From: Kofleriaceae bacterium
Lineage (GTDB): Bacteria; Myxococcota_A; Polyangia; Haliangiales; Haliangiaceae
Assembly (NCBI GenBank): GCA_024762925.1
Contig: JANTGM010000045.1
Location: 1-43,299, forward strand
Reading direction: 5' to 3'
Length of the DNA: 43,299 nucleotides
Below, in pieces: positions 5,366 to 24,854 of the stretch. How positions within the stretch are numbered: position 1 is the first letter of the stretch; every line of letters begins with the position of its first letter. A model generated the notes under the pieces. That model was not told the origin of the DNA and did not search any database. It saw nothing but the letters and a program-made list of their open reading frames with translations. Made by a program: the position numbers and the translations under genes.

Positions 5366-6591
5366 GCTTTCTCCTTGCCCAGTTGAATCTCTTGCGCATC
5401 GATGGCGCGGCCAACAACGTCCCCTGCGCGGGCGGCGAGTGCTTCGAACTTTGCCTTCGTTGCCTTCACTTCTTTTCGATAGACTTGTGAGAAGGCGTCT
5501 CGAAGACCGAGTTCTTCGGAAACGAGAATGGCGTGACAAGCGCCAACCTCGTCGAGATCAGGATCGATAAGGGCGAAGTCGAGCATGAGGTAGGCCAGGT
5601 ACTCTTTGGCGGGCTTGTCGAGTCTTGCGATTGCGTTCGTGAGTTGCTCATCGACCTCGTCCGACGTCTTGTGTGAGCTTCTTTTGTAGTCGGCGAAAAA
5701 GCACTTAGCGTGACCAAGCTGCGCCTCGCTGGTGAATGCAGTGGTGGCGAGCATCGCATCCAGCACGCGCCGAGTTGTGCTTTGCAGATCGCGCTGGTCG
5801 AGAAGGTCCATACAATCGAAGCGCAGTGCTCCTTGCACAAGCTCGGCGATCTTCGAGTCCATGTCTTTGGGGTTGTCGTTAAAAAGTTGAATGGCACGAG
5901 CACGGAGAAAGCTCTCAGGATGGCTCGTTTCCTCCGTGGCCTTGGCCTCCGCCTTCAGAATTTCACCAGCCTGCTCAAGATAGGCCTTGGCATCAACGTG
6001 CGCGAGTCCGGTGGCTACTTTGACAAGGCATCGAATCACCGCATCCACATCGCCTGTGGCCAAGAAGCCTCCGCGATCGGCGTAGATTTCGGTGTAGAGG
6101 CGATGGCGAATGATGCTCTCCACGTGACTTGGCTTGCCCGCAGGGTCGGTAGCGATTGCTGCAAGTAAGCGATCTGTAGTGAAGAACCTGCCATCTTCTT
6201 CGGACCAGAGTTTGTAGTGCGAGAACTCGTGCCCCAGAAGTACTCGAAGTTCTGCATCAGAGAGAGAGCGGAGCACAGGGCCCTGCAGAGCGACATGAAT
6301 CTCACCTGGAATGAAGCACAGGGCGGCGTTCATCATCGTTCCGCCTTCGGCCTGATAGATCGTAATTGGTGCCGAGAGCTCGAGCGCTTCGGCTACGGCA
6401 TCTGCTGCGAGATGCAGGTCCATGTGAGTTGCTCTATCGAGTCGATAGGTTGACTTCAGAAGTTCGAGACGAATGGCGTCGGCGTACTTCGTTCCAAACT
6501 CATCACTTCGAAACCAGTTCCAAAGTCCCGACTCCTCGTCTTCGAGATACGTGCTGATATTGCAGTGGTAGGGCAGTGGACGAAGCGACAT
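5362..6591 (-). CDS. M48-like zinc metallopeptidase, cytosolic
   Basis: A 409-residue predicted gluzincin peptidase. HEFSH at 121-125 is the HExxH zinc and catalytic motif. E168 in EIYAD supplies the third ligand in the M48-type E-x-x-A-D arrangement. No signal peptide or membrane segment is visible, unlike classical HtpX or Ste24 M48 members, so it should act in the cytoplasm. The C-terminal half is helical and unassigned. The stop overlaps the start of the SF1 helicase by 4 bp, so the two form one transcription and translation unit, and the peptidase is made first. The substrate is unknown; a regulatory cut in the partner helicase or in a cellular protein is inference. The gene is divergent from the SRPBCC gene. 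Confidence 0.85.
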   Translation of the reverse strand: MSLRPLPYHCNISTYLEDEESGLWNWFRSDEFGTKYADAIRLELLKSTYRLDRATHMDLHLAADAVAEALELSAPITIYQAEGGTMMNAALCFIPGEIHVALQGPVLRSLSDAELRVLLGHEFSHYKLWSEEDGRFFTTDRLLAAIATDPAGKPSHVESIIRHRLYTEIYADRGGFLATGDVDAVIRCLVKVATGLAHVDAKAYLEQAGEILKAEAKATEETSHPESFLRARAIQLFNDNPKDMDSKIAELVQGALRFDCMDLLDQRDLQSTTRRVLDAMLATTAFTSEAQLGHAKCFFADYKRSSHKTSDEVDEQLTNAIARLDKPAKEYLAYLMLDFALIDPDLDEVGACHAILVSEELGLRDAFSQVYRKEVKATKAKFEALAARAGDVVGRAIDAQEIQLGKEKA

Positions 6592-13491: not shown

Positions 13492-14307
13492 ATGTTTCTG
13501 CTCCGTATCACTGTCGCTTTCATTATCGTCACTGCAGGACTGACGTCGGCTGGTGGCGTAGCAAGCGCGAACTGTGGCGTTGACTATTGCCCGTTGCCAA
13601 ACGACCCAGCACAAAAAACGTCTCTAGGAGCGGTGCAGTTATTGGTGCGCCATGTGGAATTCTCTTTGCCCGACGGCGAGGGATCTTACATCGAGAACTT
13701 GGTACGTGTTGAGGTCCGGCGTTTTTCGAATTGGAACTTTGGCGGATGGATTGCTCCAATCATGCTCTCGGTCGATGGGGAGAACCGCACAGGGCTTTCG
13801 AATCCTGTCCTCTTTGCTGAGCGCCGAGAGCCCGTTGGAGAGCGCTGGCGATTGCTTGGAGGAGCCCAACTCGAAGTGCCAATGGGAGACAGTCACAACG
13901 GTATCGCCTCCGGTCATTCAGAGTTACTCTCATACGTAGGAGGAACTCTCGACGATCGCTCGATTCGTGTTCAGATTCGGGTGGGTCTTGCTACTGCACT
14001 CAGCAAGGGCCATGCACACGCCGGTGGAAACGCACTACTTGTGAATCCTCATGCCGATACGGAAGCACAGGTGAGGGCATCGATCGTAGCTCCACTTCGA
14101 GAAGGAAAGCTGCAACCTGGTGCCTTCCTCACCGGTCGCATGGTTCTGATGGAGGATGTAGAGGAACGCTCGTTCCTCACGGGCGCCCTTGGGGCAAGCT
14201 ACCAGGTCACAAAGATTGCTCGGCTCCAAGGCCAGGTTGAGGTGCCGCTTACTGAGGCGCAGCGCTTTGATTGGCGAGCTGGCGTTGGCGTAGGCTTCGT
14301 GCTCTAG
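13492..14307 (+). CDS. Exported outer-membrane beta-barrel-like protein
   Basis: A 271-residue protein with a signal peptide (residues 1-27, ends GGVASA). The mature part alternates polar and hydrophobic residues, with many Gly and aromatic residues, and ends in a beta-strand with terminal GVGFVL, as expected for an outer-membrane barrel. LVRVEVRRF, GERWRLLGGAQLEVPMG and GKLQPGAFLTGRMVLM are plausible strands. CGVDYCPLP near the mature N-terminus may form a disulphide. The ligand and function are unknown. It lies upstream of ccmH on the same strand, 112 bp away; a shared transcript is possible but not shown. Confidence 0.7.
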   Translation: MFLLRITVAFIIVTAGLTSAGGVASANCGVDYCPLPNDPAQKTSLGAVQLLVRHVEFSLPDGEGSYIENLVRVEVRRFSNWNFGGWIAPIMLSVDGENRTGLSNPVLFAERREPVGERWRLLGGAQLEVPMGDSHNGIASGHSELLSYVGGTLDDRSIRVQIRVGLATALSKGHAHAGGNALLVNPHADTEAQVRASIVAPLREGKLQPGAFLTGRMVLMEDVEERSFLTGALGASYQVTKIARLQGQVEVPLTEAQRFDWRAGVGVGFVL

Positions 14308-14419: not shown

Positions 14420-14890
14420 ATGCGTGCCTTCGTCGTTCTTTTCCTGAGCGCAACTCTCCACTTTGGCTGGGTCCCCCAAGCGGCCGCGCAGATGCAAGCG
14501 GACCTTCCCGGCGATCGTGCTGACATCGTTGCGCGCGAACTAATGAGTCCCTTCTGACCTGGTAAAACTCTCGCGTCGTGTACGTCGAGTCAGGCAGCAG
14601 AGTGGGTTGAGGAAATGCGAGTCTGGCTCAACGCTGGAGTGAGCGAGGAGGAAGTGCGCGCTCGGCTTCAGGCACGAGTTCCTGGCTTCAGCATGTCGCC
14701 CGATCCCGGAGGCCGTTGGGATTGGCTTCTCGGAGTACTCGCCCTGGGCATTGCATCGGGAACGCTTGTGCTACTCACACGTAGAGCCGTGTCCCGTAAG
14801 ACCTCGCTTGAGGCACCCGAGGCTGTTGATGAAGAGTCGTTGCATTGGGAGGAAGTGCTCGACGACGAACTCCTCAATTCTAACCTCTGA
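14420..14890 (+). CDS. ccmH: CcmH-like cytochrome c biogenesis protein, candidate selenoprotein (in-frame TGA read as Sec46)
   Basis: Read through one TGA (14555-14557), this is a complete 156-residue CcmH: signal peptide 1-24, then the family text ELMSPF-U-PGKTLASC, helices (AAEWVEEMRVWLNAG, SEEEVRARL), and a C-terminal membrane helix (WDWLLGVLALGIASG) with an acidic tail. In relatives the residue after SPF is the first active-site Cys of a C-x7-C pair; here it is TGA, while the second Cys (C54) is kept as TGT. CcmH handles the CXXCH thiols of apocytochrome c on the periplasmic face. The frame is open for 110 codons after the TGA, and a hairpin begins 12 nt behind it. TGA is a normal stop elsewhere in the window, including this gene's own end, so the code is not globally changed. 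The alternatives are a sequencing error or a nonsense mutation. Confidence 0.82.
14570..14589 (+). promoter_or_regulatory. SECIS-like hairpin behind the in-frame TGA of ccmH
   Basis: The 20 nt from 14570 fold as CTCG-CGT, a five-base loop CGUGU (14577-14581), then ACG, a bulged U (14585), and CGAG. All seven pairs are Watson-Crick. The loop begins 19 nt after the TGA and has a G as its second base. Bacterial SECIS elements are hairpins just downstream of the Sec codon, with a small G-containing apical loop and often a bulged U, so size and distance fit. The structure was drawn by eye, without energy calculation. Confidence 0.6.
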
Positions 14891-14950
14891 ATCGCTGAGC
14901 GGGGGGTAGACGCAAGTTGTTTGCGGCCCTATATTGCTGCGGATACTGAT

Positions 14951-16228
14951 ATGAGCAGGAACGCAGCAATTCGTGATTCCCCGGTGCGCATCGCGCTTCA
15001 GGGGCTCATTTCTGCGCGCTGGGTTCTGCTACTTATTCTTATTGGCGTTGGCATCCTAGGTGAGTTGGTGCCAAGCCTTGGCACCGATTCCATCCGATGG
15101 TTTGGAGAGAGGTCCAATCTGCCGGCGATTGTCGCGACTGTGGTTCTTTGGGGTGGTAGCAATCTCGCTGCTCATCACTGGAGTCACGAGCTTGCGAGCT
15201 ACGGCCACCGCGTTGCGGGGGTTCATCTCCTCTTGGACGTGCTGGCTCTAACGGTGCTCATTGGGCTTACGGGCGGAGCTGCCAATCCTTTCACGGTTCT
15301 CTATGTCGTGCCGATTACTCTTGCCACGCTGGTTTCTCCGCAGTGGACTTGGGGAGTTGCAATCGCTAGCGTGGCAGCATTCGGTATCTTGTTGGAAGTC
15401 GCCCCGGCTGAGAGCACCGCACATCACATGCACGGCTCAATGAGCGATCATCTCCGAGGCATGTGGCTCTCGCTCGGGCTAGCGGGTGCTCTCATCACCT
15501 TCTTCGTTCACCGAATTGCGCTTGGATTTGCACAACAGCGTGACGAACTCGCCAGGCTTCGTGACGCCGCCCGAGCAGATCGCGAGCTCGCCCGCATTGG
15601 TAGCTTAGCGGCAGGAGCTGCGCACGAGTTGGGAACACCGCTTGCCACACTCGCGGTTCTAGCTGGCGAGCTTGAGCATATGGAAGACGATGAAAAGCAA
15701 GAAGCCATCAATGTCATGCGAGGCGAAATCTCACGCTGCAAACGCATTATTGGTTCGATGGCGTCCTCTGAGCTTCGGGCAGAAGCGCTCTCGTTAAGCG
15801 ACATCGATCCCTGGAATCTTGGCGAGCTGGCCGAAGGCTGCGGGCAGGACACGGCCTGTGATTGGCAAGGAGCAGAACTCGAAGTGGCGTTCGTTCCAAA
15901 GGCTCTTGTCCTTGGCATTCTGCAGGAGCTCGTCAAAAACGCCGAGAACGCCTCGGATGGAGCCGCTGAGGTGCGCGTCTCTGGTCAGCGAAATGCTTCC
16001 GGTCTCGTTCTTCGCATCACGGACTCTGGGCGGGGAATGACTGATGAAGTTCTTGCCGCGGCAACCGATCCTTTTTATTCAACAAAGGAAAAACCCGAAA
16101 GCATGGGATTGGGACTTTTCTTAGTGAGCGCGCAACTTCGCGCGTACGGCGGCTCATTGTCTATTGAGTCAAGAGTCGGCCAGGGCACGACGATCCAGGT
16201 GTCCATTCCAGAAAACGAGGAACTATGA
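14951..16228 (+). CDS. regB: RegB/PrrB-family redox-sensing histidine kinase
   Basis: A 425-residue membrane sensor kinase. About six transmembrane segments occupy residues 20-195. The GGAANPF motif at 108-114 is the conserved quinone-responsive loop of RegB. The phosphorylated His is H225 in AAHELGTPLATLAVL, the RegB form of the H-box. C263 in SRCKRII sits where RegB carries its redox-active dimer-interface cysteine. The ATP-binding domain shows DSGRGM and GLGLFL. A TTG at 14921 is in frame, but the ATG at 14951 gives the more usual N-terminus. It overlaps regA by ATGA and starts 60 bp after ccmH, suggesting a redox operon in which aerobic respiratory state controls genes for cytochrome function. 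Confidence 0.9.
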   Translation: MSRNAAIRDSPVRIALQGLISARWVLLLILIGVGILGELVPSLGTDSIRWFGERSNLPAIVATVVLWGGSNLAAHHWSHELASYGHRVAGVHLLLDVLALTVLIGLTGGAANPFTVLYVVPITLATLVSPQWTWGVAIASVAAFGILLEVAPAESTAHHMHGSMSDHLRGMWLSLGLAGALITFFVHRIALGFAQQRDELARLRDAARADRELARIGSLAAGAAHELGTPLATLAVLAGELEHMEDDEKQEAINVMRGEISRCKRIIGSMASSELRAEALSLSDIDPWNLGELAEGCGQDTACDWQGAELEVAFVPKALVLGILQELVKNAENASDGAAEVRVSGQRNASGLVLRITDSGRGMTDEVLAAATDPFYSTKEKPESMGLGLFLVSAQLRAYGGSLSIESRVGQGTTIQVSIPENEEL

Positions 16229-16785
16229 GTGATGGGAACGATGCCATCTTGGTGGTTGATGACGATATTCCATTCTGCACAGCGCTTAGAAGTGCCCTGA
16301 GGCGACGGGGGATCAAGTGCCTTATTGCGCATACCTTTGAAGATGCCATTGAAGAGGCCCAAGCGTGGACGCCCTCGCGAGCAGTCGTAGACTTGCGACT
16401 CGCCGAGCGCTCAGGTCTGGAGCTCGTTGGGCAGCTAAGTGGCAAGCATCCGGGAATGAAGATTGTCGTACTGACTGGCTATGGCAGCATCACGACCGCT
16501 GTTACCGCAATCAAGCTTGGGGCGGTCAACTACCTTACCAAGCCTGCAGAAGTGGACGACATCCTCAAGGCATTTGACACCGAGGCAAAGCCCGCTTTGA
16601 CGCTGTCTACTGAGGGTAAAGAGCCCCTCTCGATGCGCGAATTGGAGCACCAGCACATGCTCAACGTCTATGCAGAGACTGGTGGCAATGTCTCAAAAAC
16701 AGCTCGGATTCTCGGCATCGATCGACGAACTGTGCAGAGGCATCTGGCCCGGCTTCGGGAGAGCAAGAAGCAAGAATCCGAGTAA
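16225..16785 (+). CDS. regA: RegA/PrrA/ActR-family response regulator
   Basis: A 186-residue two-domain regulator. The receiver domain has the acidic pocket DDD at 12-14 and the phosphoacceptor D56 (VVDLRL). GYGSITTAVTAIKLGAVNYL is the highly conserved RegA receiver segment, and KPA carries the conserved Lys. A linker leads to a Fis-type helix-turn-helix at the C-terminus (NVSKTARILGIDRRTVQRHL), the DNA-binding domain typical of RegA/PrrA/ActR. It is translationally coupled to regB (ATGA overlap at 16225-16228), so phosphotransfer from RegB is very likely. Relatives regulate respiration, cytochromes and anaerobic metabolism. Confidence 0.93.
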   Translation: MSDGNDAILVVDDDIPFCTALRSALRRRGIKCLIAHTFEDAIEEAQAWTPSRAVVDLRLAERSGLELVGQLSGKHPGMKIVVLTGYGSITTAVTAIKLGAVNYLTKPAEVDDILKAFDTEAKPALTLSTEGKEPLSMRELEHQHMLNVYAETGGNVSKTARILGIDRRTVQRHLARLRESKKQESE

Positions 16786-23630: not shown

Positions 23631-24854
23631 ATGTCAAAATTCGACGCTTACACGGTGGATTTGGTTGAGCAAGCTCGCATCGGCAAGCTCGATCCGGTGA
23701 TTGGCAGAGAGCCTGAAATGCGCAGAGCCATGCAGATACTAGGAAGGCGCACAAAGAATAACCCGGTCTTGATCGGTGAGCCGGGAGTAGGGAAGACAGC
23801 GATTGTTGAAGGGCTGGCCTCGCGCATTGCCGGTGGTGTGGTTCCCGAGAGTCTCAAGGCTAAGCGTATTCTTGCCCTCGACCTCGCGCAGCTGCTAGCC
23901 GGAACTCGTTACCGGGGCGATTTTGAAGAACGTCTGAAGGAAGTGGTTGGCGCAGTCATGACTGACCCAAACATCGTTCTCTTTATTGATGAATTGCATG
24001 CGGTCATTGGTGCAGGGGCAGGGGAGGGAGCCTTGGACGCAGGAAATATGCTCAAGCCGGCTCTGGCTCGCCGCGAGTTTTCTTGCATCGGTGCAACGAC
24101 CACGGCCGAGTACAATGCACACGTTGCGAAGGACAAGGCATTGTCTCGTCGCTTTCAGCCGGTGCGAGTCTCTGAGCCAGACTTTGAAGATGCACTCGTG
24201 ATCCTTCGCGGCACTGTTGAGCGTTACGAGTCCCATCATCGTGTGCGCATCGCTGACGCGGCGCTCATCGCTGCAGTGCAGATTTCCCGGGCTCATATTC
24301 CCGATCGGTTCTTGCCCGACAAGGCTATCGATCTCGTCGATGAAGCTGCAAGCCAACTGAAACTCGAGCTGGAAAGCGTTCCCAAGGAGATTGCTGTCGC
24401 TCAAGAGCGGCTAATCCGACTGCGGATCGAAATGAGGGCCAAAAGGTCAGAGCATGGAGAGCATTCTGCGGCCTACCAAGAGCTCAAGGTGAAGACGGAC
24501 TCTCATGAGAGACGTGTGGAGTGGCTCAATACCGAGTGGGAAAGCCAGCGGCGAACCGTGTCTCGCATTCGCGAGCTCTTGGCAGAAGAGGAGAGCCTTC
24601 GCACCGAAGAAGAGCAAGCGAGACGGAGTGGTGAGCTCGACACAGCTGCGCACCTGGCCTATGTCGAGCTACCGAAAGTGAGCCTACGTGTCGAGATGCT
24701 CGAGACAGAGCTCAGTGCTGCGTCTGAGGGGAAAGCACTGATGCGTGACTCTGTTGGTGTTGACGATGTTATCAGTGTTGCATCGGTCTGGACAGGGCTG
24801 TGTTCCGACGAACTGCGCAGAACCGTTGCGCTGCGTGATGAAGACGTGGGTTAG
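23631..24854 (+). CDS. ClpB-like ATPase consisting only of the first AAA+ domain and middle domain
   Basis: A 407-residue protein aligned to the centre of ClpB. It starts right after the usual N-domain ([21 protein letters not shown]). Walker A is GEPGVGKT at 49-56, Walker B is VLFIDELHA near 116-124, and the arginine-finger region [12 protein letters not shown] is present. Helices from about 240 to 370 correspond to the ClpB middle (coiled-coil) domain. It stops at [10 protein letters not shown], exactly where the second AAA+ domain of ClpB would begin (there the text is RWTGIPV). No second-domain sequence follows in any frame before the TetR gene. All visible ATPase motifs are intact, so it may work as a single-ring factor; a decayed clpB is the alternative. 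Confidence 0.85.

Follow-up and report, generated by a model that had tools for sequence, protein, structure and literature searches.

A putative selenocysteine form of a CcmH-like protein in a Kofleriaceae bacterium

The CcmH-like gene and its surroundings

In the window analyzed here (43,299 nt of contig JANTGM010000045.1 from a Kofleriaceae bacterium), we found a CcmH-like open reading frame (14420-14890, forward strand) that starts with ATG at 14420, ends with a stop codon at 14888-14890, and contains a single in-frame TGA (14555-14557, forward strand) at codon 46, followed by 110 codons. With the TGA read as selenocysteine (Sec), the 156 codons that precede the stop encode a protein of 156 residues with a signal peptide, a CcmH domain, a C-terminal membrane helix, and an acidic tail. 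No further stop or frameshift was found within these codons. A preliminary description of this locus had reported a frame that runs from signal peptide to membrane helix and is broken only by this TGA; both the frame and its coordinates are correct. When the TGA is read as Cys, residues 11-134 match the Pfam CcmH family (PF03918) with 30.9 bits, compared with a cut-off of 25, and in the whole-genome scan, in which the TGA was counted as an internal stop, the same ORF scored 22.7 bits. A single-sequence structure model of the protein had a mean pLDDT of 50, and no inference was drawn from it.

The region downstream of the TGA was compared with orthologues by codon position. Over codons 47-92, the differences were 0.385/0.350/0.681 between the TGA gene and the orthologues and 0.358/0.324/0.556 among the intact orthologues. 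This resemblance argues that the sequence 3′ of the TGA is real coding sequence and agrees with the earlier statement that the 110 codons after the TGA remain family-like. Within this region lies a shorter ORF with an ATG start (14615-14890, forward strand), which encodes 91 residues without the active site and is the probable product of a standard gene caller; standard annotation would thus probably shrink the gene to this fragment.

The downstream neighbors of the CcmH-like gene encode a RegB-like membrane histidine kinase (14952-16228, forward strand; the ORF opens with TTG at 14921 and has an ATG at 14952) and a RegA-like response regulator with a Fis-type HTH (16225-16785, forward strand). 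These RegB- and RegA-like names are presumptive, being taken from the domain make-up of the two proteins and from general knowledge of the RegB/RegA pair. Neither ccmF nor other ccm genes were found beside the CcmH-like gene. Immediately 5′ of it is a 271-residue ORF (13492-14307, forward strand) with a hydrophobic N-terminus, for which Pfam gave no match. Farther downstream in the window, a 407-residue ORF (23631-24854, forward strand) resembles, by eye, a lone AAA module of the ClpB/ClpA type that lacks the domains usually found on its flanks.

The active-site segment of the CcmH-like protein reads ELMSPF-U-PGKTLASC. When aligned with the solved CcmH structures 2hl7 and 2kw0, codon 46 corresponds to the second Cys of the LRCxxC motif, and the first Cys is replaced by Ser43. 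The canonical LRCxxC pair is therefore absent: Ser occupies the first Cys position, the TGA occupies the second, and an additional Cys is found at codon 54 (TGT, 14579-14581, forward strand). The preliminary description had assigned the TGA to the first Cys, which holds for the C-x7-C pair formed with codon 54 and is refined to the second Cys when LRCxxC is the reference. Similar to CcmH/NrfF proteins (PF03918; 2hl7 and 2kw0), the CcmH domain lies between a signal peptide and a membrane helix and has a conserved PxC active-site segment. Unlike these proteins, it has Ser for the first LRCxxC Cys, TGA/Sec for the second, and an extra invariant Cys eight residues on, and its gene lies outside any ccm or nrf operon in the window. 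Judged from these sequence features, the protein is CcmH-like but not a canonical CcmH.

Relatives and the invariant cysteine column

Stand-alone relatives were searched for in 317 genomes of the class and, with a profile, in 377 genomes of the phylum. These CcmH-like proteins, with the motif SPFCPG[KR]TLxxC, share the architecture and the invariant pair of redox positions, and the best matches in the class have 37-47% identity. Among the aligned class orthologues, the columns of codons 46 and 54 are each Cys in 34 of 34 sequences, which upholds the earlier placement of the TGA on a Cys of the C-x7-C pair with the second Cys intact. The relatives differ from the TGA gene in that all those aligned have Cys at codon 46 and most of the tested genomes that bear them lack selB. 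The proposed comparison at this column thus recovered the expected Cys partners but no Sec partner: no Sec-containing homologue turned up among the class genomes or in the phylum sample. The genome contigs were also scanned for the exact motif with TGA, and the nine matches obtained were all due to chance.

Among about 170 phylum matches listed from the 377 genomes, none besides the CcmH-like gene was found to have a stop inside the gene. The TGA codons flagged in the G181 and G561 matches are natural stop codons, and the one flagged in the G101 match is located 5′ of the start. The G054 match at first sight appeared to be a TGA copy and proved to be a deletion/frameshift remnant with TGT. This decayed gene (locus L073, approximately 5915-6300, reverse strand) retains a signal peptide and VSPFC, followed by a deletion and a frameshift and then by an open C-terminal half.

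No clear orthologue was found in the family of the source genome, including two genus mates with assemblies that are 82 and 86% complete. No other branch in the tree is as long as that of the TGA gene (2.34, compared with a median of 0.4). The gene keeps 19 of 24 conserved columns, with changes of P to T, R to V, I to M, I to V, and L to M, and its nearest group keeps nearly all of these columns.

Selenocysteine machinery and the hairpin after the TGA

Genes for the complete Sec machinery were found in the source genome, as the preliminary description had proposed to check: selC, which encodes tRNA-Sec (67.6 bits with Rfam; ARAGORN concurs, with tRNA-SeC tca), selB (331.8 bits), selA (579.5 bits), and selD (373.7 bits). 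The selD gene itself carries one in-frame TGA (C125:12235-13164, L115), and a SelW-like (Rdx) gene contains CxxTGA (C94:17105-17305, L121). The TGA codons in both genes are common to many relatives, which indicates that Sec is an established trait in this group. With all four machinery genes present and TGA at known Sec positions in two other genes, the source genome very probably decodes UGA as Sec. In the selD genes of its own genus, a SECIS-like hairpin lies approximately 32 nt 3′ of the TGA, with the loops AGUUU, GGUGC, and GGUUC. Another TGA was observed in contig C8 (approximately 73419-73421, reverse strand, L179), where it lies between the two similar halves of a long sensor-like frame (189 and 588 codons); this may be a real interruption or the border of two adjacent genes.

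Outside the genus, selB was found in only 10 of the 41 other genomes that bear an orthologue, and in none of the f16 genomes tested. A random nonsense change in this gene would therefore usually hit a genome unable to use the TGA.

A candidate SECIS-like hairpin (14558-14594, forward strand) follows the TGA of the CcmH-like gene. It consists of a lower helix (14558-14562/14590-14594), an upper stem (14570-14576/14582-14589) of seven base pairs with one bulged U, and the pentaloop CGUGU (14577-14581), with G and U at loop positions 2 and 3. The spacing from the TGA to the pentaloop is 19 nt. The 46 nt from the TGA have a fold energy of -11.3 kcal/mol, which is not better than that of shuffled sequences. 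A published model of bacterial SECIS elements specifies a loop of 3-9 nt, a G in the first two loop positions, a spacing of 16-37 nt, and an MFE of -7.5 or lower (PMC13188914). The candidate fits all of these constraints; a general version of the model, however, accepts 22-48% of random coding sites as well and therefore does not discriminate.

As a clade-specific reference, we used 35 SECIS regions taken from selD and selW in the group. Almost all of these carry an NG[GU]NN pentaloop, the type to which CGUGU belongs. The energy of the candidate is -6.1 for the hairpin alone and -9.7 with the lower helix. Hairpins at least as stable alone were found in 94% of the 35 clade SECIS, 9% of random coding sites, and 3% of Cys orthologues; with the lower helix, the corresponding values were 77, 8, and 15%. 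The hairpin is weak, and the local densities of clade SECIS and random sites at its energy are accordingly near equal, with ratios of approximately 1.2 (alone) and 1.8 (with the lower helix), or 1.1-3.4 when only xGU loops are counted. The clade-specific score thus separates the two groups only weakly. This element is compatible with Sec insertion and, as a predicted structure, argues slightly in its favor while adding little. The hairpin depends on two atypical residues, T55 and S57, and only 2-3% of codon pairs at this site reach its energy. The idea that these two residues were selected for the hairpin was dropped, since the Cys homologue in G561 has the same residues.

Probable selenocysteine insertion, alternative explanations, and possible function

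Taken from sequence comparison, these observations make it likely that Sec is inserted at the TGA of the CcmH-like gene, whose product is thus probably a new selenoprotein, the Sec form of a known thiol-redox family. UGA 14555-14557 would be decoded by the SelA, SelB, SelC, and SelD of the same genome, with SelB acting by way of the hairpin at 14558-14594. The resulting Sec46 would replace the invariant catalytic Cys of a periplasmic, membrane-anchored thiol oxidoreductase of the CcmH family and would form a selenenylsulfide/selenol-thiol pair with Cys54. The Sec interpretation offered in the preliminary description gains from the machinery, the other TGA genes, the invariant column, and an acceptable though weak hairpin, and it is weakened by the singleton status of the gene. 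Among the outcomes that this description had named as contrary to Sec were close relatives all with Cys combined with a missing hairpin, and a genome without selB/selC. Relatives that all carry Cys are what we found, whereas neither the hairpin nor selB/selC is missing. The singleton, the failure to find the gene in either genus mate, the weak hairpin, the longest branch, the decayed copy in G054, a second CcmH in the genome, and the presence of T55/S57 in a Cys homologue (G561) all count against Sec.

With no second Sec homologue found, a new nonsense change and an error in the assembly both keep some probability. The stronger of these two alternatives, to which we give a small but appreciable probability, is that the stand-alone gene was pseudogenized recently, with the TGA falling on the catalytic Cys by chance. 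The deletion and frameshift in G054, the failure to find the gene in most of the family, and the long terminal branch all speak for this explanation. Furthermore, the source genome contains a second CcmH (contig C223:448-801, L061) within a 947-residue frame that is an apparent CcmF-CcmH fusion with its cysteines kept (CLCGC...HCKC); this fusion could substitute, so that the organism could tolerate losing the stand-alone gene. Against these points stand a genome that decodes Sec, a frame of 156 codons with no other lesion, a codon-position pattern after the TGA like that of intact orthologues, and the rarity of internal stops among the phylum matches listed. Moreover, a Cys version of the ORF has 49 possible single-base nonsense changes, only one of which gives TGA at codon 46, in agreement with the earlier argument that a TGA at this Cys codon goes beyond chance. 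This count, the distribution of selB, and the rare internal stops clearly favor Sec over random nonsense, provided that the recruitment of Sec to new uses is not much rarer than assumed, the prior being a matter of judgement rather than measurement. We also sought a background rate of nonsense-broken genes from codon usage in 1.67 Mb of the genome; the candidates were mainly gene junctions and antisense shadows, and no firm rate was obtained.

A consensus or assembly error that turned TGC or TGT into TGA is improbable. The assembly is fragmented (246 contigs) and probably metagenome-derived, and the TGA copy is a singleton, but such an error needs one specific base change among approximately 1400 possible and would have left the frame with no other stop. 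Finally, expression only as the 91-residue product from the ATG at 14615, a CcmH remnant without an active site, is extremely improbable despite that ORF being present, given that the signal peptide and the conserved active-site segment, both upstream, are retained and that the domain, if it lacked the signal peptide, would probably be mislocalized.

Similar to known bacterial selenoproteins with a Sec/Cys pair (SelW-like, SelD, and the families in PMC13188914 and PMC12013277), the CcmH-like gene combines a TGA at the position of a redox Cys with Sec machinery in its genome and a near downstream candidate hairpin; it differs from these in being a single instance, and CcmH is mentioned in neither paper. 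The literature searched yielded no report of a Sec-containing CcmH as a finding, with the terms co-occurring only incidentally, in accordance with the preliminary description, which knew of none. If Sec insertion is true, this would be the first Sec-containing protein of the CcmH family that we could trace and would add a class of redox proteins to the bacterial selenoproteome. The role of the cysteines in the CcmH active site is still debated (PMC3601427), and a Sec form would open a test of what Sec does there.

As for function, the protein would be a selenol/thiol oxidoreductase of the periplasm in which Sec46 pairs with Cys54. The preliminary description had proposed that Sec would change the redox potential of a step of cytochrome c maturation. 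A role in that process is possible, but such a step is not established, considering the C-x7-C variant active site, the RegB/RegA-type neighbors, and the separate CcmF-fused CcmH. The protein is possibly tied to redox signaling through the adjacent RegB/RegA-type pair. The specific proposal that it provides this pair with a periplasmic selenol/thiol redox input, and does not act in cytochrome c maturation, is rather doubtful and is put forward tentatively. Among approximately 15 loci examined, the gene order ccmH-regB-regA was also found in G266 and the order regB-regA-ccmH in G193 and G194. The recurrence of this neighborhood in these three genomes suggests that the arrangement is older than the source genome.
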